In this document: one piece after another, positions 24,998 through 40,043 of the stretch | Layout: each line of letters starts with the position of its first letter | Position numbering within the stretch: position 1 is the stretch's first letter | DNA from: an uncultured Bacteroidota bacterium | Lineage (GTDB): Bacteria; Bacteroidota; Bacteroidia; Flavobacteriales; Flavobacteriaceae | DNA: 64,000 nt | NCBI GenBank assembly: GCA_902566635.1 | Contig: CACFJP010000003.1 | Location: 1 to 64,000 of the forward strand | Direction: 5' to 3' | Program-made: the position numbers and the translations under genes | The notes under the pieces: generated by a model | What the model was told of the DNA's origin: nothing | Seen by the model: only the letters and a program-made list of their open reading frames with translations | Database searches by the model: none

Positions 24998-27463
24998 ATG
25001 GCAAAAAATCTAGTTATCGTAGAGTCTCCAGCCAAAGCAAAAACAATAGAAAAATACCTTGGTTCTGATTTCAAAGTTGTGTCCAGCTATGGTCATATTT
25101 CAGACCTTCCTGACAAAGAACTAGGGGTTGATGTTGAGCGAAATTTTTTGCCAAAATACACAGTATCAAGTGATAAGAAAAAACTTGTATCAGAGTTAAA
25201 AACCCTTGCAAAAAAATCTAACACTGTATGGCTTGCAAGTGACGAGGACCGAGAAGGAGAAGCGATTGCCTGGCATTTGTCGAATGTTCTTGAGTTGCAA
25301 AAAGAAAATACAAAACGAATTGTTTTTAATGAAATCACAAAAACTGCTATCCAACACGCCATAGAACACCCCCGACAAATCGACCAAAACTTAGTCGATG
25401 CACAACAAGCACGAAGGGTATTGGATCGACTTGTGGGGTATGAGCTATCTCCAATCCTGTGGCGTAAAGTACAGGGTGGATTATCTGCTGGGCGTGTGCA
25501 ATCGGTAACGCTTCGTTTGGTTGTTGAGCGAGAGCGAGAAATCGAAAATTTTATTGCTAAAGAAACATTCAAAGTTCAAGCAAATTTCACCACAGTAATG
25601 GGTAGTGCCTTTACAGCCGAGCTGTCTAAAACTTTTTCAAGTAAGCAAGAGGCTTTGGATTTTTTAAATCAAAACATTGAGGCTCAGTTTCATATCGATT
25701 CTATTGAAAAAAGACCAGCTACAAAGGCTCCAGCAGCGCCTTTTACGACTTCAACTTTGCAACAAGAAGCATCGAGAAAGCTAGGGTTTTCTGTCAGTAG
25801 AACCATGCAAAATGCACAACGATTGTATGAAGATGGTTTAATTACCTATATGCGAACAGACAGTGTAAACCTTTCAAAACAAGCCTTGGCACAGGCTGCT
25901 TCGGTGATTGAAAGCAACTATGGGAAACAATATTTACGAACACATCAGTATGTTACCAAAAAGAAAGGAGCACAAGAAGCGCATGAAGCCGTTCGTCCAA
26001 CTGACTTGACTCTAATGGAAGCAAATGTTGAATATGATCAACAGCGACTGTATAATTTGATTTGGAAACGCACCTTGGCCTCGCAGATGAGTTTGGCAAA
26101 ACTCGAAAGAACAGTTGCCAAAATCGTTACAGACAAGCATCCTCATGCATTTGTTGCACGAGGGGAAGTGGTTGTTTTTGATGGATTTTTAAAATTATAT
26201 TTTGAAGGTATTGATGATCCATCCGATGAAGTTCAATCGCTGCTGCCAGCAATGAAAAAAGGTGAGGTTGCCCATGTAAAACAAATCATTGGTACACAAC
26301 GCTTCAGTCGACCTCCTTATCGTTATTCAGAGGCATCACTTGTCAAAAAATTGGAAGAGCTTGGCATTGGAAGACCATCAACCTATGCACCTACCATATC
26401 AACTGTTCTCAATCGTAAATATGTTGCTAAAGGCACATACGAAGGAGATCGGCGAATATATCTACAATTGCAACTCAATGATAACAAACTGACAACTGAA
26501 AATAAATTTGAAAAAACAGGCTCTCAAAAAGGCAAACTTGTTCCTACAGATATTGGTTTTTTGGTCAATGACTTCTTGATCAACAACTTCAAGGACATAG
26601 TTGATTATGGGTTTACGGCAAGCATCGAACAGGATTTTGATCGAGTAGCAACTGGAAATTCTGAATGGGAGACGATCATGAAGCAATTTTACTCTAATTT
26701 TCATCCAGTTGTAGAAGATGTTAAGAAAAATGCTTCTCGAGAGACAGGGCAGCGAATTTTGGGAACACATCCTAAAACTGGTCGTCAATTGAGCGTTCGC
26801 CTTGGAAAATTTGGCCCAATGGCTCAGTTGGGGACAGTTGACGATGAAGAAAAGCCATTATTTGCTTCAATTCCAGATTCAATTAGTTTAGCTAAAATAA
26901 CTTTTGAAGAGGCTCTGGACTTGTTTAAACTGCCAGCAACAATTGGCGAATATGAGGGATTGCCTGTGCAAGCTAACAATGGTCGTTATGGACCATATGT
27001 GCTTCATAATAAGGTATTTGTTTCTTTGCCAAAGGGCACAGACCCACTCACAGTGACGTTGAAACAAGCCATCACTTTCATTGAGCAAAAACGAAAAGAC
27101 GATGCACCAATTGCAACCTATGAAGGTCAGGGTGTTACCAAAGGCAAGGGTAGATTTGGACCTTTTATCAAGTGGAATGGGTGGTTTATTAACGTGTCAA
27201 AGCAATTTGACTTTGATGATCTTTCAGATAAAGATATCGAAGAACTCATAGAATCAAAGAAGAAAAAAGAAGCGGAGCGAATTGTTCGTGTTTGGGAAGA
27301 AGAGGGCATTCGAATCGAAAAAGCAAGGTGGGGAAGGCATAACCTCATCAAAGGAAAAACTAAGGTTGAGCTCAACAAAACAATCGATGCAGCTAATATG
27401 ACCCTTGAATTAGCCAAAGCGATGTTGAGCAAAAAGAAGTCTGCAAAAAAGAAAAAAAAATAA
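24998..27463 (+). CDS. topA: DNA topoisomerase I
   Basis: An 821-residue type IA topoisomerase that relaxes negative supercoils. The Toprim domain begins directly (MAKNLVIVESPAKAKTIEKYL) and holds the SDEDREGEAIAWH metal site. The active-site Tyr lies in the LITYMRTDS segment (about residue 290). The C-terminal part carries repeated topoisomerase_C-type modules (FGPMAQLG, GRYGPYVLHN, GRFGPFIKWNG) instead of zinc fingers, and a Lys-rich tail. Three bases separate it from the next gene, so an operon running into gldKLMN is likely. Confidence 0.97.
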   Translation: MAKNLVIVESPAKAKTIEKYLGSDFKVVSSYGHISDLPDKELGVDVERNFLPKYTVSSDKKKLVSELKTLAKKSNTVWLASDEDREGEAIAWHLSNVLELQKENTKRIVFNEITKTAIQHAIEHPRQIDQNLVDAQQARRVLDRLVGYELSPILWRKVQGGLSAGRVQSVTLRLVVEREREIENFIAKETFKVQANFTTVMGSAFTAELSKTFSSKQEALDFLNQNIEAQFHIDSIEKRPATKAPAAPFTTSTLQQEASRKLGFSVSRTMQNAQRLYEDGLITYMRTDSVNLSKQALAQAASVIESNYGKQYLRTHQYVTKKKGAQEAHEAVRPTDLTLMEANVEYDQQRLYNLIWKRTLASQMSLAKLERTVAKIVTDKHPHAFVARGEVVVFDGFLKLYFEGIDDPSDEVQSLLPAMKKGEVAHVKQIIGTQRFSRPPYRYSEASLVKKLEELGIGRPSTYAPTISTVLNRKYVAKGTYEGDRRIYLQLQLNDNKLTTENKFEKTGSQKGKLVPTDIGFLVNDFLINNFKDIVDYGFTASIEQDFDRVATGNSEWETIMKQFYSNFHPVVEDVKKNASRETGQRILGTHPKTGRQLSVRLGKFGPMAQLGTVDDEEKPLFASIPDSISLAKITFEEALDLFKLPATIGEYEGLPVQANNGRYGPYVLHNKVFVSLPKGTDPLTVTLKQAITFIEQKRKDDAPIATYEGQGVTKGKGRFGPFIKWNGWFINVSKQFDFDDLSDKDIEELIESKKKKEAERIVRVWEEEGIRIEKARWGRHNLIKGKTKVELNKTIDAANMTLELAKAMLSKKKSAKKKKK

Positions 27464-27466
27464 CAA

Positions 27467-28612
27467 ATGGCGATTGAGTTTCTTGTCCCTGTAGCTGATG
27501 AAGTTTTATTACTTCGAACGACTTCAGAACCACAGACATTGGGTAACAAAATTAAAATTCACACTGAAACAGGAGGGATTCCGAGCTTCAAAAACAATAG
27601 AATCGCGATTGTGGGGGTTCTAGAAACAAGATCAATAGGTCAGCCCCATCAGCGCAAACAAAACCTGACAGGAATTCGCAAAGCATTTTACAGCTTATAC
27701 ATTGGAAATTGGAGTAATAACATAATTGATCTAGGAGATGTCCCCATTGGAGATAAGGAAAGTGACTCAATGAAGGTACTACACGATATCGCCAAAGAAA
27801 TGTATCAGCGCAACATACTGCTGATCGCTTTTGGGGGGAGCCAGGAGAATACCCTTGGCCTTTGTCGTGTTTATAACGAACTGGAGCTTTACTATAACTT
27901 GACGTCGATAGATTATAAATTTGATTTTGGTGGCGATGGCAATCTCATTTCACCAGATTCTTATATGTCAAAGCTCATTGCAAACCGACCCAATTATATG
28001 TCGAATTTCTGTAATCTGGGCTATCAAAGTTATATGGTAGCTCAAGATGAAATTGACCTCATGGATCGTTTGTATTTTGAGTCCTATCGTCTTGGTGCAT
28101 TGACGCCCGACCTCAGGGTTGTCGAACCCCTGATACGTGACTCTGATATTGTTTCAATGGATATGATATCAGTGAAATCCAATGAGCTTCAAAGTGGATT
28201 GACACAAGTTAATGGATTTACAGCACAACAATTTTGTGCATTGGGGCGTTATGTTGGTATCAGTGACAGGGTTCGATTTGTAGGTATACAGAATATTCCA
28301 GACACCAGTGCCGCTGCGAACTTGACAGCTCAAACAATGTGGTATATTATAGAGGGTATGCATTTTAGAGTGAATGAATTTCCGTTTTCAACAAAAGAAA
28401 ATTGTGTAAAGTATGTAGTCTCGTGTGATAACCAAGAGTTGATTTTTTATCAAAGTTCAGTGAGTAAACGCTGGTGGTTAGAAGTACAAGCAGAACAAGA
28501 CTCCAATCAGGAAATCATGCTGATTTCATGTGCTGAAAATGATTTTTATACAGCAGAAAAAGGGGTGGTTCCTGAGCGTTGGTGGAAGGCCATTCGTCGT
28601 AGTATAATTTAA
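27467..28612 (+). CDS. Arginase-fold (ureohydrolase-like) protein with degenerate metal site
   Basis: 381 residues with the arginase/agmatinase/formimidoylglutamase fold; Bacteroidota members are usually labelled formimidoylglutamase. The Mn-binding motifs of active enzymes are altered: GGDHS is replaced by GGSQEN, DAHxD by DYKFD, and SxDxD by SMDMI. At least three of the metal ligands are therefore gone and hydrolase activity is doubtful. It sits between topA and gldK. A binding or structural role linked to the T9SS genes is possible but unproven. Confidence 0.8.
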   Translation: MAIEFLVPVADEVLLLRTTSEPQTLGNKIKIHTETGGIPSFKNNRIAIVGVLETRSIGQPHQRKQNLTGIRKAFYSLYIGNWSNNIIDLGDVPIGDKESDSMKVLHDIAKEMYQRNILLIAFGGSQENTLGLCRVYNELELYYNLTSIDYKFDFGGDGNLISPDSYMSKLIANRPNYMSNFCNLGYQSYMVAQDEIDLMDRLYFESYRLGALTPDLRVVEPLIRDSDIVSMDMISVKSNELQSGLTQVNGFTAQQFCALGRYVGISDRVRFVGIQNIPDTSAAANLTAQTMWYIIEGMHFRVNEFPFSTKENCVKYVVSCDNQELIFYQSSVSKRWWLEVQAEQDSNQEIMLISCAENDFYTAEKGVVPERWWKAIRRSII

Positions 28613-28667
28613 AATGCATATTTTTGTCAACAGTATTGTTAATAAATATCTTAATTTCGCACATGTA

Positions 28668-30296
28668 ATGAGAAGCATAACCGCATTACTTGCTTTATTA
28701 ATTTTAGTCTTGAGTTGTGGAAAACGCGATCAAGGCGAGTTAATTGGAGTTAAGACAAAAAAGTTTATAAAAGTTAACCCACATGGGATGGTTGAAATTC
28801 CGGGTGGGTCTTTTATTATGGGTTCTTCCGACGAGGATATCATTGATGCGCAAAACGATATCACTCGAACCATGACTGTCCGTACCTTCTACATGGACGA
28901 AACCGAAATATCCAATCGCGAGTATATGCAGTTTATCGAATGGGTGAAAGACTCAATCGTGAGAACTAAACTTGCAGAAAAAGCAGTTTATGTAGCCTTG
29001 GGAGTTACGCAAGACAACACTAAAGATTTTAAAAATATAGAGCAGACCTGGTCAGAGTTTAATGATCTAGCAGAATCTTTAGTCAATGAAAACTCGGAAG
29101 GTGTTGGTGAAATTAAAATGCCCAACCTGGATGACCTTTCAGATGAAAATGAAAATTTTAGCAGTCCAGAAGATTTCTACACTGCCGAAAAAGGAGAAAT
29201 ACTTACATATTTCCCTGCGATAGCCGATTACGTTGGTGTTGAAGAATCTGATGGCGACACTGGTGAAGAATTTAGTGGACTCAATGGATATCAGTTACTT
29301 CTTCGATATAGAGCTGAAAACCCTATAGTTCTATGGTTAAGAGATAGAAATAAGCCTGACAGCGAATATCACAACTATCTCCCTTTAGATAGAGATACTG
29401 ATATTTTTTGGGATAGAGAAGATTATCCAGACATCCACTATTCAGAAGTTATGGAAGATGAGGTATATTTACCCGAAGAAGAATGGTATAATGGCGTTCG
29501 ATCTATTGATACTAAAATATTGGTTTATCGCTATTCTGAGCTGAAGACTGATAGTTTGGTCAACGATATGAAGAATCCAAACCTAGTAGATAACATCAAA
29601 CGTTCTGATTACCTCGTACACGACGCTGTTCGCATTTATCCTGATACGACAGTTTGGATAAAAGACTTTAAGTATAGTTACAACGAACCGATGTTTAACG
29701 AATATTTTTGGCATCCCGCTTATGCTGATTATCCAGTAGTGGGCATCAGTTGGAAGCAGGCAAAAGCATTTGCGAATTGGAGAACAAAATACAGGAATGA
29801 TTATTTGAGGGGAGAAAAAAATAAAACAACAGTTGGTCAGTTTCGGCTGCCAACTGAAGGAGAATGGGAATATGCTGCTCGTGGTGGTAAGCAATCTGCA
29901 ATTTACCCTTGGGGAGGGCCTTATTTGGTCGACAACCGTGGGGATTTTCTTGCAAACTTTAAACCCAAACGAGGCGATTACTCAGCTGATAATATCGTTT
30001 ATACTGCTGAGGTAGATTCCTATGAACCAAATGATTTTGGACTGTACAATATGTCTGGAAATGTAGCTGAATGGACCTCATCGCCTTATTACAACGAGAG
30101 TTATGAGTTCAACACAACTTTTAACCCCGACGTTTATATGCCAGGGAATGAAAGAAAAGTAGTACGAGGAGGCTCATGGAAAGATATTGCCTACTTCTTA
30201 AAAGTTGGAAGTAGAGATTACGAATACGCTGACAGTGCAAAGAGTTATATTGGGTTGCGTTTAGTTCGTGACTATTTAGGATCAAACAGTAGATAA
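28668..30296 (+). CDS. gldK: T9SS ring lipoprotein GldK
   Basis: 542 residues from MRSITALL, chosen because a lipoprotein signal follows (lipobox VLSC); the 18 codons upstream are not signal-like. The body is a formylglycine-generating-enzyme/SUMF1-type domain (MVEIPGGSFIMGSS at the start; LPTEGEWEYAARGG and RKVVRGGSWKD late), interrupted by a long acidic insertion (about 110-330). In the type IX secretion system GldK and GldN form the periplasmic ring at the outer membrane. The downstream order gldL-gldM-gldN makes GldK, not GldJ, the right assignment. Confidence 0.94.
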   Translation: MRSITALLALLILVLSCGKRDQGELIGVKTKKFIKVNPHGMVEIPGGSFIMGSSDEDIIDAQNDITRTMTVRTFYMDETEISNREYMQFIEWVKDSIVRTKLAEKAVYVALGVTQDNTKDFKNIEQTWSEFNDLAESLVNENSEGVGEIKMPNLDDLSDENENFSSPEDFYTAEKGEILTYFPAIADYVGVEESDGDTGEEFSGLNGYQLLLRYRAENPIVLWLRDRNKPDSEYHNYLPLDRDTDIFWDREDYPDIHYSEVMEDEVYLPEEEWYNGVRSIDTKILVYRYSELKTDSLVNDMKNPNLVDNIKRSDYLVHDAVRIYPDTTVWIKDFKYSYNEPMFNEYFWHPAYADYPVVGISWKQAKAFANWRTKYRNDYLRGEKNKTTVGQFRLPTEGEWEYAARGGKQSAIYPWGGPYLVDNRGDFLANFKPKRGDYSADNIVYTAEVDSYEPNDFGLYNMSGNVAEWTSSPYYNESYEFNTTFNPDVYMPGNERKVVRGGSWKDIAYFLKVGSRDYEYADSAKSYIGLRLVRDYLGSNSR

Positions 30297-30306
30297 TTTA
30301 AGAGGA

Positions 30307-30909
30307 ATGAAGAAAAAGTTTTTTATACCGGAAAAATACTTAGAATTAGTTTTTGGACTAGGAGCATCAGTCGTTATTATTGGTGCACTTTTGAAAATTA
30401 CACACAAGGATTTTATATTTAGTGGAAACACATGGCTAACAGCTGGGCTCATAACTGAGGCTGTGATTTTTATGATTGCAGGTCTTAGAGGATATGCTGT
30501 AACAAACGAGGATGACGATCTTGGAGACAGTCCAGAGGCTGCAATCTCTGACATTTCAAAAGAAGTAGATGCGCTTAAAGAAGCCTTTGCATCTGCCACC
30601 AACCAAATACAAAATTTGACAGGAAGTTTGCAAGCTGCCACAATTGCGGCAGCAACAATTAAGATTCCTGAAAATTTTCAAGTAAACGTTGATGAGCTAA
30701 ACAACCGCCTTGCTTCGGCTAGTGTTTCTGTTTCGCAAGTTCAGGACGTTTATAATAATATCGAAAAGAGCTTGGATGGTCAGCCTGAAGCGCATAGAGA
30801 TGTCGTATCTGCTAGTGATAAGCTTGTTGTGCAACTAGAAGAAATGAACTCTCTTGTGAAGCAGCTGAACGAAAAGTACTCTGCGATTTCTAAAGCAATG
30901 GGTAATTAA
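30307..30909 (+). CDS. gldL: T9SS inner-membrane motor protein GldL
   Basis: 200 residues with two membrane helices near the N-terminus (about 14-33 and 40-60), one carrying the conserved Glu (LITEAVIF), and a cytoplasmic coiled-coil tail. With GldM it forms the proton-driven motor of type IX secretion and gliding. Located 10 bases after gldK. Confidence 0.94.
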   Translation: MKKKFFIPEKYLELVFGLGASVVIIGALLKITHKDFIFSGNTWLTAGLITEAVIFMIAGLRGYAVTNEDDDLGDSPEAAISDISKEVDALKEAFASATNQIQNLTGSLQAATIAAATIKIPENFQVNVDELNNRLASASVSVSQVQDVYNNIEKSLDGQPEAHRDVVSASDKLVVQLEEMNSLVKQLNEKYSAISKAMGN

Positions 30910-30928
30910 ATAATATCAACCACATCTA

Positions 30929-32623
30929 ATGGCAGCAGGAAAACAAGATTCTAGGCAAAAAATGATAAACATGATGTATCTAGTGTTTATCGCCATGTTG
31001 GCTTTAAATATTAGTAAGGAGGTACTCGCCACTTTAGGAATTTTGAACGATGATATAGAAAATTCGATACGTTCCAAAATAGAAAAAAGTGAAGAGCTAT
31101 ATGGCTTGTTTAAGCAAAATGCAGAGAACCCAAGCTATTCATTTGCTAAAGAGTGGGCTTCTGTCATAGAAGATGCCACCGACGAATACTACACATTTAT
31201 ACAGGGAATAAAAGATACGCTATTACTGGACAAAGACGGTAAAAATAAATATAAGAAGGCTGTAGTAATAAAAGACGGCCCGAACAAATCAGATACCCTA
31301 ATTATTACAAACTATCAGACTATGGACAAGGCACTTGATCTAGATGATATGTTTTTTGAAGGAAACAACTACGATAGTTTGGGTGTTGTGTTTGTTGACA
31401 AATTTAAATCATATTCTTCCCTAATGCGTTCGATTATCGACTCTATTGCCTTGCAAGAAAGTCGATTGACTGTCAAAAGAACACCACACGATTTTTCTAT
31501 TAGTAAAGACCTTTTAAGCAGAAGTTTTACTTTTCAGGACTCTGTTGTGAACTCAGAAGGAACAATCCAACCTTATCTCGATTACAACTACAAGGGTTTT
31601 CCAAAAATCGCTTCTCTCTCTAAACTCACGAAGTTACAATCTGATGTTCGTGAATTAGAACTTCAAATGGTGGATGCGTTTAACACAAAAATTTTAAGTG
31701 ATGGGAGTGCTGTAAACATCAACACCTCGAAGTCGCTATTGAATGCAAAATCAACCTATTTCGTTGGTGAGCGTATCAATGATGCCAAGATACTTATTGG
31801 CCGAATTGCAAGTGACTTTCAGCCAGATTCTGTTTCGATTAAAATCGATAATCGCCAATTGCGACAGGGAAGAGACTTTACTATAGAAGATGGCGCCATC
31901 AACCTCAATTTAATCTTCAGTTCTGGTGGGGAAAAGAAAATTAAAGGAGATTTATTTTTCTCTGATGCAGACGGAAATCTTGAACCAATCCCTGTTGAAC
32001 AAACCTTAGTGGTGAACAATCGTACTGACTTTTTCATCGAGATTCCACGAATGAATGTGTTGTATCGTGGATTGCCAAACGAAATACGTGTTATTGATCC
32101 TGAAATTCAACAAACTAACATGACACTTCGTTCTGGCTCTGCTGATATTATTCGTGGGACAAGCAGCACTTTTGAAATCATACCCAATAGCAATGTCAAA
32201 AGTGTTAAAGTTACTGTAGGAGATCGTTCGAATTCAAGAGTAAAAAAAGAAAAAACGTTTAGAGTAAAAGACCTACCTGAAATGGAAAGTTCTTTACTGT
32301 ACAGTAATAATTTCTTTACAAGTTCTACAGGAATCAGTAAAAGAGGACTCCAAAGAGGTAGATTGACTGCCAAAATCCCTGATGATTTTGATTACGAGCT
32401 AACAATTGAAGTGGTGAGCTTTACATTCCAAATTGGAAATTCAGCCCCCAGGGAAATCAAAGGTGATAAACTCAATGAATTGTTTGCAGTTATCGAAGCA
32501 CAGCCAAAGGGAGCAAGAGCTTTCTTTGACAATGTGATTTCTCGAGCCTACTTTAATTCTGGTGGTAAGAGACGCTATGTAGAAAATGTAAAGGTTAAAG
32601 ATTTCAACATTAAACTCAGATAA
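30929..32623 (+). CDS. gldM: T9SS motor/periplasmic shaft protein GldM
   Basis: 564 residues. The N-terminus MAAGKQDSRQKMINMMYLV and one membrane helix (about 15-35) are highly typical. The periplasmic part is a chain of beta-rich domains that reaches to the GldKN ring. Starts 19 bases after gldL. A slightly longer helical part than the textbook length is possible, but nothing is missing. Confidence 0.96.
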   Translation: MAAGKQDSRQKMINMMYLVFIAMLALNISKEVLATLGILNDDIENSIRSKIEKSEELYGLFKQNAENPSYSFAKEWASVIEDATDEYYTFIQGIKDTLLLDKDGKNKYKKAVVIKDGPNKSDTLIITNYQTMDKALDLDDMFFEGNNYDSLGVVFVDKFKSYSSLMRSIIDSIALQESRLTVKRTPHDFSISKDLLSRSFTFQDSVVNSEGTIQPYLDYNYKGFPKIASLSKLTKLQSDVRELELQMVDAFNTKILSDGSAVNINTSKSLLNAKSTYFVGERINDAKILIGRIASDFQPDSVSIKIDNRQLRQGRDFTIEDGAINLNLIFSSGGEKKIKGDLFFSDADGNLEPIPVEQTLVVNNRTDFFIEIPRMNVLYRGLPNEIRVIDPEIQQTNMTLRSGSADIIRGTSSTFEIIPNSNVKSVKVTVGDRSNSRVKKEKTFRVKDLPEMESSLLYSNNFFTSSTGISKRGLQRGRLTAKIPDDFDYELTIEVVSFTFQIGNSAPREIKGDKLNELFAVIEAQPKGARAFFDNVISRAYFNSGGKRRYVENVKVKDFNIKLR

Positions 32624-32627
32624 CGTT

Positions 32628-33572
32628 ATGCATAAGATCATTTACATTCTTACTTGCTTGCTGGTTACTGCTTCCTATGGGCAGTTCAACTTGTTGAATG
32701 CTTCATCCCCAGATGAAGTTGGTAAAAAGACTGAAAAGCAACAAGAACTGGACTATAATGAACCCTTAGTTTACCCATATGTAGATGATAAAGACATACT
32801 TTGGAGCAAAGTTGTGTATGAGTACATTGATGGCTATGAGCAGTTTAATTACCCACTGTTTTTTCCAACTCAGGATTCTCAGTTCTCAGAAGACCGTAAA
32901 TCTCTTTGGCGGATTCTAAGAGAGTATTTGTATGAAAGTGAAGACTCAATTACGGTTTACGATGCTAACTTTAGAAATTTCAATGTTAAATTTACTTACA
33001 ACCTAAGAGAGCCAAAACCTTCCGACGTAATCGGAGATCAATTTTACTTGGTAAACACAAAACTCCCAGGTGACGAAACAGACTATAACCTCGACGGTGT
33101 CGTGGATGAAAACGACGTAGAATACTTACCATCCGAAAATATTGTTGGGTATAACCTGAAAGGGGTATGGTATTTCGACAAGAAGTATGGAGAGCTTCGC
33201 TATCGCTTGATTGGTATCCAACCTGTTGGGTATACTGCATTTGATCTTGGCGCTGCTCAAATCGCTGCCGAGTCTGATGGGAATGCTCTAAAGCCTGTTG
33301 CCTTTTTCTGGCTTTGGTATAAAGATATACGAGAGGTGCTACACAAGCACTATGTCTTTAGTGACAGAAACAATTCCAAGCGAATTACTTTTGATCAACT
33401 ACTTCTCTCTCGAAAGTTTCACACTTATTTGTACCGAATTGATAATGTGATGAACGATCGTGATTTATTGAACACGCCATATATCAATGATGACCCTTAT
33501 TTGCGAATCACAGAATCACAAAGACTCAAGGAAATCATTCGAAACTTTGAGCATGATACGTGGAGCAACTAA
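32628..33572 (+). CDS. gldN: T9SS ring protein GldN
   Basis: 314 residues with a signal peptide (about 1-18, cut near SYG-Q) and the GldN/PorN core: an N-terminal PYVDDKDILWSK segment and later GVWYFDKKYGELRYR and FFWLWYKDIREVLHKH. It forms the periplasmic ring with GldK. Located four bases after gldM. In related genomes an FAD-dependent oxidoreductase follows; here only its pseudogene remains. Confidence 0.95.
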   Translation: MHKIIYILTCLLVTASYGQFNLLNASSPDEVGKKTEKQQELDYNEPLVYPYVDDKDILWSKVVYEYIDGYEQFNYPLFFPTQDSQFSEDRKSLWRILREYLYESEDSITVYDANFRNFNVKFTYNLREPKPSDVIGDQFYLVNTKLPGDETDYNLDGVVDENDVEYLPSENIVGYNLKGVWYFDKKYGELRYRLIGIQPVGYTAFDLGAAQIAAESDGNALKPVAFFWLWYKDIREVLHKHYVFSDRNNSKRITFDQLLLSRKFHTYLYRIDNVMNDRDLLNTPYINDDPYLRITESQRLKEIIRNFEHDTWSN

Positions 33573-33621
33573 TTGCCTACAATCATCTCCATTTTCTTTT
33601 TTATGAATCTAATTATCTAGA

Positions 33622-34361
33622 TTGATCGACTACATTGTTGTTGGTCTTGGATTTTTAGGAATTTCCTTTACCATCAACTCGAAAAAAATCAGCATTCATT
33701 TGTCGTCATTAACGGCGGAAAACAATCTGCTAGCCGAGTTGGATCGGGTTTATTCAATCGCATTGCCCTCAAGCGCACCAAACCTTAATGGATTGGCCAC
33801 CAACAGATGTCAACCTCGATGACTTACTGTAAGGCATTAGAAATAGAGCTTGGAGTTCGCTACAGATATATCAAAGTCAACCACATCGTTTTTACCCAGG
33901 GCATTGGAGGGCTCATATACAACACATAGTTCTTAGAAGTTCTACTGCAACAAACAAAGGGAGAGTTGATAATCATTGAGATCAAAGATTTGCAAGAAAA
34001 AAGCATCATTAAAGGGGGGTGTATTTATGAATCCCCTTGGAAATCATAGATATCGAGTAGGGTTGACCTACAACTGAAAAGATCAAAACAAAGGGACAAC
34101 GCAGAAAGCGCAAATTGCGCTACAAAAACAGTTGGAAAAAATGATTCAAGTTTCTTATCAAATTGTGAGTCAACCTGCAGGCTTTCGCCCCACAACAGTA
34201 GAAAGATGGCTGTCATAGTGGTTCATTCATAATTTTATAACTCGCCATCTGTAATTGTATGGGTTCTCGTGGGGTATTACAAGCCCCTTTTTGCGATAAA
34301 TCTACTCTATGATTATGTCGAAAAAGGGATTCCTATTCCTTCTGAAATCAGTTTAAATTGA
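33622..34361 (+). pseudogene. Broken FAD-dependent oxidoreductase (DAO-type)
   Basis: Frame-by-frame reading gives IDYIVVGLGFLGISF (dinucleotide-binding start), then SFVVINGG and SRVGSGLFNRIALKR in another frame, later TKGELIIIEIKDL and VFMNPLGNHRYRVGLTYN, then AGFRPTTVERW, GSRGVLQAPF and finally LYDYVEKGIPIPSEISLN with a stop at 34361. These pieces lie in the order of the roughly 350-residue flavobacterial FAD oxidoreductase that commonly follows gldN. Several stops and frame changes and about 100 missing residues in the middle show it is dead. Starts 50 bases after gldN. Confidence 0.88.
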
Positions 34362-34676
34362 TTTAAAAATTAAAACTTTAGTTCAAAATTGAGAAATTAA
34401 CAGCGTTGATATACATTTTTTTCGATTTTTTCTGAACAAAAAAGAAATACTCTTTTTTGATACAATTGAAGATTAAACTTAGAACTAAATTAATTATAAG
34501 GTACTCATAATCAATTAGATATATAATTTTTTTTATCATTTTAATGATTTTGGTTGATCTGTTGACAATCATTAAAAAAAATCAACCTCATAAAAAAAGT
34601 GGGTTTCTTTCGATAATTTGTCAACAAAAGGGATAATATGAGAAAATTTACGTATTTTAGATACAAATTATTAATC
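34362..34676. other. AT-rich spacer and leader before the 64-residue protein gene
   Basis: Very AT-rich DNA without a convincing reading frame. It contains several inverted repeats: an 11-bp hairpin (separate entry), GGTTGAT (34552-34558) with ATCAACC (34581-34587), and GTTGACAA (34561-34568) with TTGTCAAC (34618-34625). The pairings are mutually exclusive in part, which is how an RNA switch would look, but no known riboswitch class is recognisable. No exact TAnnTTTG box was found here. Confidence 0.4.
34539..34577. repeat. 11-bp perfect inverted repeat upstream of the small gene
   Basis: TTTTAATGATT (34539-34549) and AATCATTAAAA (34567-34577) with a 17-base loop, about 100 bases before the start codon of the 64-residue protein. 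On the minus strand the right arm would be preceded by a T-run. It could be part of a structured leader or a leftover terminator of the dead upstream gene. Confidence 0.45.
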
Positions 34677-34871
34677 ATGGCTTATTCATTTGAAAATAGT
34701 AAAGGAAAAACGTATTACTTACACACCAAAGATGTAACTCTTAAAGGTGGTAGAAACCAAACAATTTATTACTTCGCAAAAGATCAACGCAGCAATGCAT
34801 GTGATTTGCCAGCAGGTAAGAAAGTTGTTGAAAATGAAAGAACAGGCCTTCCTTTTGTAAAGTCTGTTTAA
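34677..34871 (+). CDS. Small conserved-looking protein of unknown function
   Basis: 64 residues from MAYSFENSKGK; a start 13 codons earlier (34638) is possible but the extension looks random. The protein is polar and basic with no signal or membrane segment, and contains the patterns YYLHTKDVTLKGG and QTIYYFAKD and ends NERTGLPFVKSV. I have the impression of a widely distributed small protein of this shape but cannot name it. It is a single-gene unit in an otherwise decayed zone, preceded by a structured leader and followed by a very strong terminator, which suggests high expression. Confidence 0.8.
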   Translation: MAYSFENSKGKTYYLHTKDVTLKGGRNQTIYYFAKDQRSNACDLPAGKKVVENERTGLPFVKSV

Positions 34872-34892
34872 AGAATACGTTTTGATAAAAAC

Positions 34893-34919
34893 AAAACCCC
34901 GAGAAATCGGGGTTTTTTT
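34893..34919. terminator. Strong bidirectional intrinsic terminator
   Basis: AAAACCCCGA (34893-34902), GAAA tetraloop, TCGGGGTTTT (34907-34916), T-run to 34919. The A-run on the left makes it work on both strands: for the 64-residue protein gene on the plus strand and for the facing dead membrane-protein gene. Confidence 0.93.
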
Positions 34920-34938
34920 ATACATGAATTTTTGATTA

Positions 34939-35235
34939 CTATCGTTTGTACACGACGCTTGCCACGATTCCAGTAATAGCGTAAGTAACCACCCAAAAAA
35001 TACCACCGATAAATTGTCCTTTTGCAGTGGTTCGCAATTCTTCTCCATACATAACAAGTCAAATTCCAGCACCAAAAAAACCAATCAATACAACGAATCG
35101 AATGCCACAAGGAATGATGCAGATATCCTAATCTCATCTTTCACAAATAGATAAAAATATATAGGCCAAAATGAGACAGCCTTGGGTAAGAGGTAGAAGT
35201 AACGTATCTTTTCTATTCGAAACCTCGGCTAACAT
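34939..35235 (-). pseudogene. Small membrane-protein gene with three in-frame stops
   Basis: One minus-strand frame runs from ATG (35235) to TAG (34939), exactly 99 codons, interrupted by TGA, TAG and TGA at codons 34, 36 and 59. Between the stops it reads protein-like: LTQGCLILAYIFLS, then GIRFVVLIGFFGAGI, then LVMYGEELRTTAKG and GGIFWVVTYAITGIVASVVYKR-type membrane segments. The frame is otherwise undisturbed, so decay is recent. TGA is a normal stop elsewhere in this window, so recoding is unlikely. Family not recognised. Confidence 0.7.
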
Positions 35236-35423
35236 TTGACTTTCGAAAAAGTCTGCAGCGAAAAAATAATAAAAAATCTAAAATAAAAAGTAAATCGGTA
35301 TAAAAGATTCGAAAGTAGAGATGACTCTATTTTTACTTAACATTATATCAAGAATTTGGTTACACAGTACTAGTATAATTAATCTATTGACTTATGAAAT
35401 AGGTCATAATGAAATATGGGTGC

Positions 35424-35431
35424 TATCTTTG
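35424..35431 (+). promoter_or_regulatory. -7 box before mvaD
   Basis: TATCTTTG, exact TAnnTTTG, nine bases before the ATG at 35440. No TTG at the right distance. If used, the transcript would have almost no leader for the start at 35440, or about 45 bases for the alternative start at 35479. Confidence 0.45.
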
Positions 35432-35439
35432 TATCAACT

Positions 35440-36522
35440 ATGACGATTTGTGTAGAATTTGTTCCTAAAGGTGGGGAGATGGAAATTTCTTTATTCAAAA
35501 CCACTTGGACAGCACCGAGCAACATCGCTTTGGTGAAATACTGGGGAAAAAAAGAGTTACAAATCCCTTGCAATCCCTCTGTAAGTTTTACCCTCGATAA
35601 ATGTCGAACAACCACCACTGTTCGATTTGAAAAACAAATTGATGCTAAAGATGACGTTTCATTTAAAATTCAATATGATGGAAAACCTGCACCTTCATTT
35701 GTACCCAAAATCAAAACCTTTATCGATAGGATACTGCCATATGCTCCTTATTTAAAGCACTATAGTCTTGGAATCGATACATCAAATTCTTTTCCCCACA
35801 GTAGTGGAATTGCTTCGTCTGCATCTGCTATGGCTGCGCTTGCTGCTGCAATCATGGATTTTGAGAAACAACTCTACCCTTCAATGACAAATGATTATCA
35901 AACGAAAAAATGCTCCTTTCTTGCTCGATTAGGGTCGGGGAGTGCTGCGCGAAGCGTCCAAGGTCCAGTTGTGCTTTGGGGAGAACACGCAGACACTCCT
36001 GAAAGTAGCAATTTATTTGGCGTTAAATGGATTCATGGGGCAGAGGTGTATAATACCTTCAGAGACTCTATTCTTTTAGTTGACAAAGGCGAGAAAGAAG
36101 TGAGCAGCACAGTGGGGCATAATCTTATGCACAATCATCCCTATGCTGAAAGTCGTTTTTTGCAAGCAGAAAAAAACTACAAAGCATTGCTTGGTGTTTT
36201 ACAAAATGGAGATATGAGTGGCTTTACCAATATTGTTGAGCAAGAAGCATTGAGCTTACATGCCATGATGTTGACCTCTTCTCCATCGTACATTTTGATA
36301 CATCCCAACACATTAGAAATTATTCAAAGGATGCGAACTTTTAGAAATAAAACCGATTTTAACATCACTTTTACTCTTGATGCTGGGGCCAATGTTCATT
36401 TGCTCTATCCTGAAGATGAATCAAAATATATCGTTGAATTTATTGAATCTGAGTTAGGTCAGTTTTGTCAAAACAAGGAATTGATTCACGATCGGGTTGG
36501 AATGGGATTAAAAAAAGCGTAG
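35440..36522 (+). CDS. mvaD: Diphosphomevalonate decarboxylase
   Basis: 360-residue GHMP-superfamily enzyme converting mevalonate diphosphate to isopentenyl diphosphate with ATP. The family core begins WTAPSNIALVKYWGKK; the phosphate loop is PHSSGIASSAS and SGSAARSVQG follows. I chose the ATG at 35440 because an EFVPK-like N-terminal extension is typical of flavobacterial members; MEISLF at 35479 is the alternative. Nine bases before mevalonate kinase, first gene of the second mevalonate cluster. Confidence 0.93.
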   Translation: MTICVEFVPKGGEMEISLFKTTWTAPSNIALVKYWGKKELQIPCNPSVSFTLDKCRTTTTVRFEKQIDAKDDVSFKIQYDGKPAPSFVPKIKTFIDRILPYAPYLKHYSLGIDTSNSFPHSSGIASSASAMAALAAAIMDFEKQLYPSMTNDYQTKKCSFLARLGSGSAARSVQGPVVLWGEHADTPESSNLFGVKWIHGAEVYNTFRDSILLVDKGEKEVSSTVGHNLMHNHPYAESRFLQAEKNYKALLGVLQNGDMSGFTNIVEQEALSLHAMMLTSSPSYILIHPNTLEIIQRMRTFRNKTDFNITFTLDAGANVHLLYPEDESKYIVEFIESELGQFCQNKELIHDRVGMGLKKA

Positions 36523-36531
36523 TTTTATAAC

Positions 36532-37461
36532 ATGAAAGGCCCATTGTTTTACGCTAAAATTTTACTTTTTGGAGAATACGGAATCATCAAAGATGCCAAA
36601 GGTCTATCCATACCTTACAACTTTTACAAAGGAGCCCTTAAAATTTCCAATACGAAAACTGATTCGGCAAAAGCTTCTAACCAGAGGCTAACTGAATTGG
36701 CTGATTACCTTGAAAGCTTAGACAGCAATTTGGTGTCTTTCAACTCCGAGCAATTTCGTCTGGATTTGAGCAAAGGACTATACTTTGATAGTAGTATTCC
36801 ACAAGGCTATGGTATTGGTAGCAGTGGTGCATTGGTTGCAGCTATTTATGATCGTTATGCCAACAACAAAATCACAATTTTGGAAAATCTTACACGTGAT
36901 AAGCTGTTGAGACTCAAACAGATTTTTGGACTGATGGAGTCTTTTTTCCATGGGCAGTCATCAGGTTTAGACCCACTTAACAGTTTTTTGAGTTTGCCAA
37001 TTCTCATTCATTCCAAAGATGTTTTAGAAGCTACAGGAATTCCATCGCAATCGCAAGCTGGAAAAGGCGCTGTTTTTTTACTCGACAGCGGAACGATGGG
37101 AGAAACTGCCCCCATGGTCAATATCTTTATGCAAAATATGGAGTCAGCTTCATTTCGTAAAATGATCAAAGAAAAGTTTATCTCCTATTCTGATAACTGC
37201 GTTGAACACTTTTTAAATGGAGATATCAAATCTCTATTTGGTGATTTGAAGAGGCTTTCCAATACTGTTCTAACCCATTTTAAACCCATGATTCCAAAGC
37301 AGTTTCACGATTTATGGAAAACAGGCATTGATACCAATGCTTATTATCTCAAACTATGTGGATCGGGTGGTGGTGGATACATTCTTGGCTTCACTGAAGA
37401 TATTTCCAAGGCTAGGGATGTATTGAAAAATCATCCTTTGGAAGTGGTATATACCTTCTAA
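36532..37461 (+). CDS. Mevalonate kinase
   Basis: 309-residue GHMP kinase that phosphorylates mevalonate. Motifs: KILLFGEYGI near the N-terminus, PQGYGIGSSGALVAA (ATP loop, about residue 90), HGQSSGLDPLNS with the catalytic Asp, and CGSGGGGYILGF near the end. It lies between mvaD and the UbiA prenyltransferase in one transcription unit. Confidence 0.92.
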   Translation: MKGPLFYAKILLFGEYGIIKDAKGLSIPYNFYKGALKISNTKTDSAKASNQRLTELADYLESLDSNLVSFNSEQFRLDLSKGLYFDSSIPQGYGIGSSGALVAAIYDRYANNKITILENLTRDKLLRLKQIFGLMESFFHGQSSGLDPLNSFLSLPILIHSKDVLEATGIPSQSQAGKGAVFLLDSGTMGETAPMVNIFMQNMESASFRKMIKEKFISYSDNCVEHFLNGDIKSLFGDLKRLSNTVLTHFKPMIPKQFHDLWKTGIDTNAYYLKLCGSGGGGYILGFTEDISKARDVLKNHPLEVVYTF

Positions 37462-37472
37462 TTTTTTTTGCT

Positions 37473-38354
37473 ATGCCCAATAGAGAAGGCATAATTCTAA
37501 AATCAATAAGCTTGCTATCACTGGTTAGAGGTCAAAATCTTATGGTTTTGGTCATTGCTCAACTCCTCTCCGCCGCTTTTATTTTTTCATCTGCAATAAG
37601 TCCTAGAGAAACACTTTTGGACATCAATCTTTGGTTGATTGTCTGTGCAACCCTGCTCTCTGTTGCTGCTGGGTATATCATTAATGCGTTTTTTGATCAG
37701 GAAAAAGATTTGATTAATCGACCACAAAAAACCCTGTTAGAAACAAACATATCTTTAAGATCAAAAATGATTGGGTATATTTTCTTGAATGGAACTGCTG
37801 TGTTGGTGGCGAGCAGTGTTTCGCAAAGGTCTGCTGTGTTCTTTTGTGCTTATATCGCTTGTATGGCTTTTTACTCTGCTTTTTTGAAGAGATATTTGTT
37901 CATTGGAAATATTGGTTCAGCACTGCTAACAGTACTTCCATTTTTTGCTATAACTGTCTATTTCAAGAACTTTTCAGTAGAAATGTTTACTCTCGCCTCC
38001 TATCTATTGTTACTCATCTCTGTCAAAGAGTTGGTTAAAGACCTATGTAATATCAAGGGTGATTTATCAAACAATTATAAAACCATACCCACTGTTTATG
38101 GAGAAAATAGTGCCAAACGACTCATTTCCCTTCTAGTCGTTTTTTGTTTTGGTGTTTTTTTCTTGCTGTATTTCTTTTTTTCCTTACAAAGTATGGTCTA
38201 TTATTTTCTGGCTAGCTTGGGTTTTCTTTTGTTTTTCACAATATTGGTGTGGGTATCCTCAAAACCCAAACAATTGATATTGCTGTTGTTTGGAATAAAA
38301 GCACTTATCGTACTTGGGATTATCTGCTTACCATTATTGAAAATCCCAATATAG
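37473..38354 (+). CDS. UbiA-family prenyltransferase
   Basis: A 293-residue integral membrane protein with about eight helices. The two Asp-rich motifs of the superfamily are visible: NAFFDQEKD (N-x3-D-x3-D) and the second around KDLCNIKGDLSNNYKT. Flavobacterial proteins in this slot are annotated as geranylgeranylglycerol-phosphate geranylgeranyltransferase. Its acceptor is not known to me. Placement behind two mevalonate-pathway genes supports use of an isoprenoid donor. Confidence 0.82.
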   Translation: MPNREGIILKSISLLSLVRGQNLMVLVIAQLLSAAFIFSSAISPRETLLDINLWLIVCATLLSVAAGYIINAFFDQEKDLINRPQKTLLETNISLRSKMIGYIFLNGTAVLVASSVSQRSAVFFCAYIACMAFYSAFLKRYLFIGNIGSALLTVLPFFAITVYFKNFSVEMFTLASYLLLLISVKELVKDLCNIKGDLSNNYKTIPTVYGENSAKRLISLLVVFCFGVFFLLYFFFSLQSMVYYFLASLGFLLFFTILVWVSSKPKQLILLLFGIKALIVLGIICLPLLKIPI

Positions 38355-38368
38355 TTATTATACCTTTG
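38337..38368 (+). promoter_or_regulatory. Promoter for the pseudouridine synthase gene
   Basis: TTG (38337-38339), 21-base spacer, TACCTTTG (38361-38368): both elements at consensus spacing, overlapping the end of the UbiA gene. The ATG follows only four bases after the -7 box, so the transcript is probably leaderless or nearly so. Confidence 0.65.
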
Positions 38369-38372
38369 CAAA

Positions 38373-39125
38373 ATGACGAGAAAAAAAAAACCAACTGCAA
38401 AGAAATCAACTTCCTCGAACACAATTCGACTCAATAAATATATCGCTCACGCTGGTATTTGCTCTCGTAGAGAGGCTGACATGCACATCAGTTTGGGTGT
38501 GGTGAAGGTCAATAACAAAGTCATTACAGCGCTAGGTTATCAGGTCAAGGAAGGTGATGTTGTTCATTTTGATGGGAAACAAATAAACCGAGAGAAGAAG
38601 GCCTATGTACTTTTGAATAAACCAAAAGGATTTATCACAACAACAAAGGATGAAAAAGGTCGAAAAACTGTAATGGATTTAATTGTAAAATCAACCCCGT
38701 CGAGAGTTGTGCCAGTTGGGCGTTTAGATCGCCCTACAACAGGCTTACTCCTATTTACCAATGATGGAGATTTGGCAAAAAAACTCACACACCCTTCTTC
38801 AATGGTGAAAAAGCTTTATCACGTGGTGCTTTCCAAAAGTTTAAAACCACATGATTTGGCACAGATTCGACGGGGATTCACTCTCAATGATGGCCCTATT
38901 CAAGTGGATGAGATCAGTTATGTTAAAGGCGCTAGCAAAAGAGAAATTGGATTGGAAATTCACTCAGGGCGTAACAGGATCGTGAGGCGTATATTTGAGC
39001 ATATGGGTTACGAAGTCATAGCGCTTGATCGTGTTGTTTTTGCAGGTTTAACCAAAAAAGATCTTCCAAGAGGCACTTGGCGTCACCTGTCGCGAAAAGA
39101 AATAGATTATTTGAATATATTGTAA
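38373..39125 (+). CDS. RsuA/RluB-family rRNA pseudouridine synthase
   Basis: 250 residues: basic N-terminal tail rich in Lys, S4 RNA-binding domain (about 18-75, RLNKYIAHAGICSRREAD), then the pseudouridine synthase domain with the catalytic Asp in VGRLDRPTTGLLLFT. It modifies a uridine in 23S rRNA (RluB-type) or 16S rRNA (RsuA-type); I favour RluB. The promoter lies inside the preceding gene and a strong hairpin follows one base after the stop. Confidence 0.9.
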   Translation: MTRKKKPTAKKSTSSNTIRLNKYIAHAGICSRREADMHISLGVVKVNNKVITALGYQVKEGDVVHFDGKQINREKKAYVLLNKPKGFITTTKDEKGRKTVMDLIVKSTPSRVVPVGRLDRPTTGLLLFTNDGDLAKKLTHPSSMVKKLYHVVLSKSLKPHDLAQIRRGFTLNDGPIQVDEISYVKGASKREIGLEIHSGRNRIVRRIFEHMGYEVIALDRVVFAGLTKKDLPRGTWRHLSRKEIDYLNIL

Positions 39126-39126
39126 A

Positions 39127-39156
39127 AAACTCCGAGTTTTATTAAACTCGGAGTTT
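39127..39156. terminator. Bidirectional terminator between the pseudouridine synthase gene and tRNA-Phe
   Basis: Perfect 13-bp arms AAACTCCGAGTTT (39127-39139) and AAACTCGGAGTTT (39144-39156), loop TATT. A-run at 39124-39129 gives the T-run for minus-strand tRNA transcription; the plus-strand T-tail is shorter. Confidence 0.9.
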
Positions 39157-39157
39157 G

Positions 39158-39230
39158 TGGTACCTCCAGGAATCGAACCAGGGACACAAGGATTTTCAGT
39201 CCTTTGCTCTACCAACTGAGCTAAGGTACC
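39158..39230 (-). tRNA. tRNA-Phe (GAA)
   Basis: A 73-base cloverleaf on the minus strand: acceptor GGTACCT with AGGTACC, D-loop AGCTCAGTTGGTAGAGC, anticodon loop CTGAAAA giving GAA, and T-arm loop TTCGATT. CCA is not encoded. The terminator arm starts one base beyond its 3' end. Confidence 0.97.
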
Positions 39231-39247
39231 ATGCACTTTGACAGATA

Positions 39248-39277
39248 CAAATATAAAACCCTTTATAGAATTGACAA
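39248..39277 (-). promoter_or_regulatory. Promoter of tRNA-Phe
   Basis: On the minus strand TTG (39277-39275), 19-base spacer, TATATTTG (39255-39248). This is the best full match to the Bacteroidota promoter consensus in the window, 18 bases before the mature tRNA. Confidence 0.75.
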
Positions 39278-39323
39278 GGGACTATTTAAAATTGAAGTAC
39301 ATTAGCACTAACAAAGTATCGTT

Positions 39324-40043
39324 TTGAACCTCACAATAGATATTGGAAACACAAACACCAAGCTCGGGTTTTTCGAAGGTCTGGAGTTAAAATCTACTGA
39401 GAAGTATACAACCAATCAACCCATCGAATGGAAATCGATTATCTTAACAAATAAAGTCTCCCATGCCATTGTTTCACAGGTTAGAAATCAACAGTTAGCA
39501 CTAGATGACCTTTACACCAAAACCCAATGTTTGGAGGTTCATCATCAGCTTCAATTCCCATTTACATCTGCATATGAGCCTTTTACGAATTTGGGGATTG
39601 ATCGAGTTGTGGGATTAGCAGCTGCAACATACTTGTTTCCCAAAACAAATGCCCTGATTATCGATGCAGGTACTTGTATCACATATGATTTCATCACTGC
39701 AAATGCAAATCATCTTGGGGGTATCATCAGTCCTGGTCTATCAATGAGATATCAAGCCATGCACAAAAACACGCATCAATTGCCAAACTTAGAGATAAAA
39801 AAGCCCACTGCATTTCCACCTGTAGACACCAATGAAGCCATGCATTATGGGGTTATCTGCGGAGTTAAAGCTGAAATAAAGACATTTATCAAGAGATTTG
39901 AGGCTCATACACCAAATTTTATGACAATTTTAACAGGTGGCGACGCTGGTTTCTTGTCTAAACGACTAAAAAATAGCATCTTAGCGGACGCAAATTTTTT
40001 AGCATTTGGTTTAAATCTTTTGCTCGAAACGAATAAGTCATAA
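39324..40043 (+). CDS. coaX: Type III pantothenate kinase
   Basis: 239 residues of the ASKHA fold: phosphate motif DIGNTNTKLGFF at the N-terminus, then GIDRVVGLAAA, DAGTCITYD and HLGGIISPG. It phosphorylates pantothenate, the first step of CoA synthesis, without feedback inhibition by CoA. Starts at TTG; no in-frame ATG upstream and the family begins exactly here. The next gene starts on the base after its stop. Confidence 0.94.
   Translation: MNLTIDIGNTNTKLGFFEGLELKSTEKYTTNQPIEWKSIILTNKVSHAIVSQVRNQQLALDDLYTKTQCLEVHHQLQFPFTSAYEPFTNLGIDRVVGLAAATYLFPKTNALIIDAGTCITYDFITANANHLGGIISPGLSMRYQAMHKNTHQLPNLEIKKPTAFPPVDTNEAMHYGVICGVKAEIKTFIKRFEAHTPNFMTILTGGDAGFLSKRLKNSILADANFLAFGLNLLLETNKS

Follow-up and report, generated by a model that had tools for sequence, protein, structure and literature searches.

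The 64,000-nucleotide stretch of DNA analysed here (the window) carries an intact gldN gene followed by sequence that looks empty, the window's list of open reading frames holding none of the expected length behind gldN. The original prediction saw in this space the ordered pieces of one dead protein, an FAD-dependent oxidoreductase, and asked whether the gene contributes to gliding or secretion.

A dead oxidoreductase gene behind gldN

A set of 24 intact gldN-linked proteins, seven from the window's genus and 17 from its family, was searched against the whole window by tblastn, and all but one (23/24; the exception was L019) matched at E <= 1e-3. Matches were confined to about 33550-34370 and fell in pieces in frames +1, +2 and +3, the best of which scored 110 bits (E 6e-29), compared with a maximum of 26.9 bits from 1000 mononucleotide shuffles of 33570-34637. 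A translated search of the kind suggested with the original prediction thus found one oxidoreductase family spread over three frames. The intact reference gene, from the congener G006 (L032:5508-6548), likewise lies behind gldN, and the features in and around the window's copy are as follows.

32628..33572, + strand: gldN, intact, 314 aa (open reading frame, relatives, constrained in comparison with G007)
33622..34370, + strand: pseudogene of a ~346-aa DAO-family FAD oxidoreductase, here FADox (tblastn, DNA alignment with G006, G003 and G007, lesion counts)
33622..33687, + strand: N-terminal FADox piece with the glycine-rich motif, frame +1, residues 1-22 of L032
33672..33860, + strand: second FADox piece, frame +3, residues 18-80, 79% identity to L032
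33855..34022, + strand: FADox piece beyond the 291-bp deletion, frame +3, starting at residue 176 (tblastn, lesion alignment)
33976..34206, + strand: FADox piece, frame +1, residues 216-292 (tblastn E 6e-29)
34241..34309, + strand: C-terminal FADox piece, frame +2, 61% identity to L041 residues 305-327
34939..35343, - strand: 135-aa gene, broken by four internal in-frame stops and not part of FADox
39158-39230, - strand: tRNA gene, the only Rfam match in 26000-40000

The sequence at 33622-34370 is a disabled copy of an enzyme gene that is widespread and mostly present once per genome; the copy is collinear with an intact orthologue at the same locus and carries several disabling lesions. All six fragments named in the original prediction were matched, in the same order, in the G006 gene; the middle reported as missing is a 291-bp deletion relative to G006 with its junction near 33855, and the stops and frame changes from which the gene had been called dead resolved, on DNA alignment with G006, into five 1-bp indels and six stops in the reference register (two further 'insertions' in the lesion output are alignment ends and were excluded from the count). 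The proposed start at 33622 also held, whereas the proposed end at 34361 fell slightly short of the remains, which reach about 34370. Identity as an FAD-dependent oxidoreductase was borne out by intact orthologues, which score 95.2 and 96.4 bits for PF01266 (DAO), above the gathering cut-off of 27.9. The pseudogene itself is ordinary; the part worth testing is the function proposed for its living relatives.

Fold and gene partners of the living enzyme

An AlphaFold model of FADox (pLDDT 91.6) matches, over nearly its full length, both ThiO-type glycine oxidases, which are the closest solved structures (1ng3, 3if9 and 4ysh; Z up to 33.8), and MnmC(o)/MnmC1, the FAD domain of E. coli MnmC (3ps9 and 3awi; Z 31.3-31.7, 337 residues aligned), with which it has the DAO fold in common. 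Because many other amine oxidases rank close behind at similar Z, the fold does not name the substrate. Unlike E. coli MnmC1, FADox is a stand-alone protein, about 15% identical to it and far below the NCBIfam cut-off for that family (TIGR03197, 51.6-88.2 bits over seven FADox proteins; cut-off 174.2). The same seven proteins also score below the cut-off of the ThiO model (TIGR02352, 68.3-86.4 bits; cut-off 250.8), so FADox is filed as neither, with ThiO outscoring MnmC1 in six of the seven (75.9 bits for L032). The best PDB sequence match is again the ThiO structure 3if9 (E 1.7e-18). Position 286 of FADox is an invariant Arg in alignment A3, in which E. coli MnmC1 is included and has the same residue, and this Arg aligns, as does the motif around it, with an Arg of glycine oxidase; the corresponding Arg in ThiO is presumably the one that binds the substrate carboxylate.

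When E. coli MnmC1 was used as the query against 30 genomes, it matched G214 (E 2.6e-7) and G071 (E 0.003), in both cases through the FADox gene, and gave no match at E <= 0.01 in the other 28, a search of such low sensitivity that the reciprocal-best-hit test of MnmC1 failed on this account. A plasmid search with L032 for DAO outgroups returned no match, and the MnmC1 and ThiO outgroup branches are so long (7-10 changes per column) that the tree cannot place FADox nearer to one or the other. Judged by the predicted structure, the living enzyme is an FAD amine oxidase of the glycine oxidase/MnmC1 fold, MnmC1 itself being structurally homologous to glycine oxidase according to the available text of PMC3648344.

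Besides gldN, the sole recurrent gene partner seen was mnmD, for the tRNA methyltransferase MnmD/MnmC(m). Of eight loci fetched from family f25, seven (L066-L072) have mnmD directly upstream of FADox and in the same orientation, and L073 lacks it; six of the eight were preselected for an adjacent MnmD match and the other two (one paired, one not) were unselected. The two genes are separated by a 2-bp gap in three of these loci and by a gap of ~80 bp in two, and they overlap by 8 or 14 bp in the remaining two; two of the methyltransferases, at 194 and 196 bits, exceed the NCBIfam cut-off for MnmC2 (136). Several Bacteroidota, most of them uncultured, have tight and sometimes overlapping mnmD-FADox pairs. 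A scan of named genomes, covering the best 80 of 150 relatives (L079-L158), found mnmD directly upstream in 33, gldN directly upstream in 24 and neither within the 3-kb flank or contig in 23; at least five of the 33 mnmD-linked loci repeat genomes of the f25 set, and the sample is biased towards mnmD-linked forms, since proteins of that kind served to build the query. On the best tree, mnmD-linked forms need six changes, at least two of them forced by well-supported branches, and gldN-linked forms need two, with the ThiO outgroup falling among the latter on a very long branch. Fusion or pairing with MnmC(m), the mark of an MnmC(o), is therefore found in some relatives, with the methyltransferase (MnmC(m)/MnmC2) as a separate gene, and not in the window.

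Across a class-wide sample of 295 genomes other than the window's own, FADox was found in 226, after eighteen rows with E 3e-7 or weaker had been dropped as other DAO proteins and thirteen rows with E of 1e-19 to 1e-42, including several split matches, had been kept as present. FADox and MnmD (PF05430) were both found in 196 of these genomes, FADox only in 30, MnmD only in 36 and neither in 33 (p = 1e-8; three MnmD rows below the cut-off were taken as absent), and the association persisted with the 71 families taken as units (39/9/9/14, p = 8e-4). No association was seen inside families (186 observed, 185.8 expected), since most of them are close to uniform. Among 47 relatives outside the genus, 34 had both genes, one FADox only, five MnmD only and seven neither (p = 9e-5, with the weak G047 row taken as absent), and only one of the 24 window-family genomes outside the genus, G016, was without MnmD; it is also without FADox and has kept gldN. 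FADox as a candidate does not cover every orphan mnmC(m), since family f50 has MnmD in 13/13 genomes and FADox in none. Beside FADox in 19 loci without mnmD or gldN neighbours (of 20 fetched, L159-L178, L176 having no FADox row), no translation partner recurred, no family being present in more than three of the 74 neighbours scanned out of 90. Three of those 74 neighbours have RimK-type ligase domains and three have the zinc protease domain PF05618, too few to weigh.

The available part of a 2023 paper (PMC9976899) describes MnmC(o) as missing in 'Bacteroides' (genus or phylum) and in other groups with an orphan mnmC(m), and holds an as yet unrecognised MnmC(o)-like enzyme to be probable in such organisms. 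In the available text of PMC3648344, MnmC1 oxidises cmnm5U34, which is then hydrolysed to nm5U34, and non-fused MnmC1 and MnmC2 orthologues exist in other bacteria; B. subtilis has no MnmC orthologue according to the part available of PMC7408541. No Bacteroidota MnmC(o) was identified in the literature titles and abstract openings listed, which covered few subscription papers. FADox, present across the class and paired with mnmC(m) in some of its genomes, is a direct candidate for the enzyme sought.

Gene context suggests what the function may be. We consider it reasonably likely that FADox works like MnmC(o), as a predicted tRNA wobble oxidase whose neighbourhood with gldN is historical and which was lost in the window's genus after MnmD had become absent there. 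With odds we would put a little better than even, the gldN-linked gene and its mnmD-linked relatives would together be the stand-alone MnmC(o)-type oxidase of much of Bacteroidota, and the genus would be dismantling the pathway backwards. The tRNA substrate, the reaction, the reason for the gldN position and the order of the losses are inferred. FADox would strip cmnm5(s2)U at the tRNA wobble position of its carboxymethyl group to give nm5(s2)U, which MnmD/MnmC(m) would then methylate, and the oxidase and methyltransferase genes that stand head to tail in some Bacteroidota would together encode the two steps. The position of the oxidase gene behind gldN in the window's order probably reflects neighbourhood history rather than function, with gldN-linked copies predicted by homology to do the same job as mnmD-linked ones. 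Weighing against this reading are scores far below the MnmC1 cut-off, the higher ThiO scores of six of the seven proteins, the weak sensitivity of E. coli MnmC1 as a query, an association with MnmD that exists between families but not inside them, and the intact FADox of seven genus genomes where no MnmD was found.

It is possible, if somewhat doubtful, that FADox is instead an oxidase or dehydrogenase of a free amine or an N-substituted amino acid and that its mnmD and gldN neighbourhoods are both accidental. Many small-molecule amine oxidases have the same fold at similar Z, and the members without an adjoining mnmD or gldN show no translation partner, but overlaps of 8 and 14 bp and spacings of 2 bp with mnmD are hard to call accident, as is a pairing that recurs on several branches of the tree. 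A ThiO-type glycine oxidase feeding thiamine thiazole synthesis is quite unlikely. Glycine oxidases are the top fold matches and ThiO is the best NCBIfam model for six of the seven scored members, yet the scores stay below the ThiO cut-off, and a strong ThiG match is present in just 44 of the 226 FADox class genomes and absent from 182, a negative association (p = 4e-7, uncorrected). This distribution and the sub-cut-off scores led us to set ThiO aside.

Linkage to gldN and the question of a T9SS role

The original prediction that an FAD oxidoreductase commonly follows gldN in flavobacteria proved right within the order. Of the 35 order relatives outside the genus that have FADox, 28 carry it no more than 300 bp behind gldN (counted by eye), and named gldN-linked loci include Bizionia, Winogradskyella, Hanstruepera and others. 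Outside the order, however, it was near the best-scoring GldN in 0/68 genomes that had both among the matches listed (best GldN only), and the four of these genomes that have FADox and the best GldN on one contig keep them at least 150 kb apart. Linkage to gld/por genes wherever both occur, as would mark a T9SS accessory, was thus not what we found. A literature search that covered few subscription papers returned no paper joining gldN with an FAD-dependent oxidoreductase.

The presence of GldN itself is a weak test, since GldN is near-universal in the class sample: a match at E <= 1e-3 was found in 288 of 295 genomes, and 266 of 296 pass the family's own cut-off. Such a match is kept by 63 of the 69 class genomes without FADox, although some of these matches are weak, and the counts with and without GldN are 225/1 in FADox genomes vs 63/6 in those lacking it (p = 8e-4, not phylogeny-corrected). 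SprA was found in 11 of the 13 genomes of the window's genus, including G001, in which FADox is deleted, and G003, in which it is frameshifted. It was not found in the window's own genome, G000, or in G009, drafts that are 64% and 58% complete, respectively, and its absence from G000 means little because of that incompleteness.

A T9SS role for FADox is unlikely, and we give very little credence to FADox being a gliding or secretion accessory whose loss here marks a changed machine. The position behind gldN within the order, the slight co-occurrence with GldN across the class and the missing SprA of G000 are what this account can draw on. Against it stand the lack of proximity to GldN outside the order, the persistence of GldN in most genomes without the enzyme and of SprA in congeners with a lost or frameshifted FADox, and the occurrence of the enzyme across the class with another gene partner, a tRNA methyltransferase. 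Moreover, FADox decays in the window's lineage while the adjoining gldN stays under purifying selection (see below). The lead towards secretion and gliding therefore went unsupported and is redirected here to a testable function; adjacency to gldN alone is unsafe ground for inferring one.

The window's family also offers a different arrangement in G016 (1.9 Mb, 93% complete), where neither FADox nor MnmD was found and an open reading frame of at least 1710 codons lies behind gldN instead (L042).

Decay of the gene within the genus

Comparison of the gldN-downstream gene in close relatives, also proposed at the outset, found FADox intact in seven of the 13 genus genomes (G004, G005, G006, G008, G009, G011 and G012), broken in four and unresolvable in two. 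In the seven, a gene of 346-350 codons begins 45-59 bases past the last GldN codon. The four broken copies represent at least three separate lesion sets: in addition to those of the window and of G007, its nearest relative, G001 has lost the body of the gene and retains roughly the first ten codons and a short C-terminal stretch, and G003 carries a single 1-bp frameshift, which could be a sequencing fault. Of the unresolvable pair, G002 gave no match to GldN or FADox, and in G010 the contig stops within gldN and no FADox match was found.

The gldN genes of the window and G007 differ at 39 of 942 bases, and the broken FADox of G007 shares none of the window's indels or stops, the columns flagged as common to both falling within the large deletion of the window's copy or where the alignment ends. 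A sequencing fault in the window is not credible because so near a relative is also broken, by different lesions. For the window's copy, an error of assembly or sequencing in a 64%-complete draft can be regarded as excluded as the source of the broken frame, since the five 1-bp indels, the 291-bp deletion and the six stops all lie beside an intact gldN, and since other lesions break the gene at this locus in G007 and in G001.

Between the window's genome and G007, FADox differs at 39/32/51 sites at codon positions 1/2/3 (of 248-250 sites each), compared with 4/1/34 in gldN (of 314 each; Fisher p = 4e-7). Codon-position constraint has thus been lost in FADox, while gldN alongside stays constrained. 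A weak third-position excess persists in the dead gene (p = 0.04), and 17 sites are common to the window and G007 against G006 and G003; on these grounds, constraint on FADox was probably relaxed around or before the split of G000 and G007.

No MnmD was found in any of the 13 genus genomes, and the chance of 13 misses through genome incompleteness alone is 1e-8, if these are independent. MnmM as a replacement methyltransferase gave no match in 60/60 relatives, and MnmG is intact in the window's genome. The absence of MnmD may be why FADox decays in the genus, although seven genus genomes keep an intact FADox where no MnmD was found. On the MnmC(o)-like function preferred here, the oxidase may no longer feed a last step in this genus and would have been lost repeatedly; the methyltransferase would have gone first and the oxidase second, as a non-essential branch dismantled in small genomes (1.0-1.7 Mb assembled across the genus). 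The end product would then be cmnm5U or nm5U, as made by MnmEG, and neighbouring species may end with different wobble modifications.

The 135-aa gene that is broken further along the window gave no tblastn match in the G001 locus and is intact in G006 (L032:7120-7524), where it scores for no Pfam family over the cut-off. In G007, the end of contig C3 past the FADox remains (L031, first ~250 bases) holds an apparent part of a downstream mevalonate-pathway gene in opposite orientation, which, from an alignment judged by eye, appears to be an inversion or a chimeric contig end.
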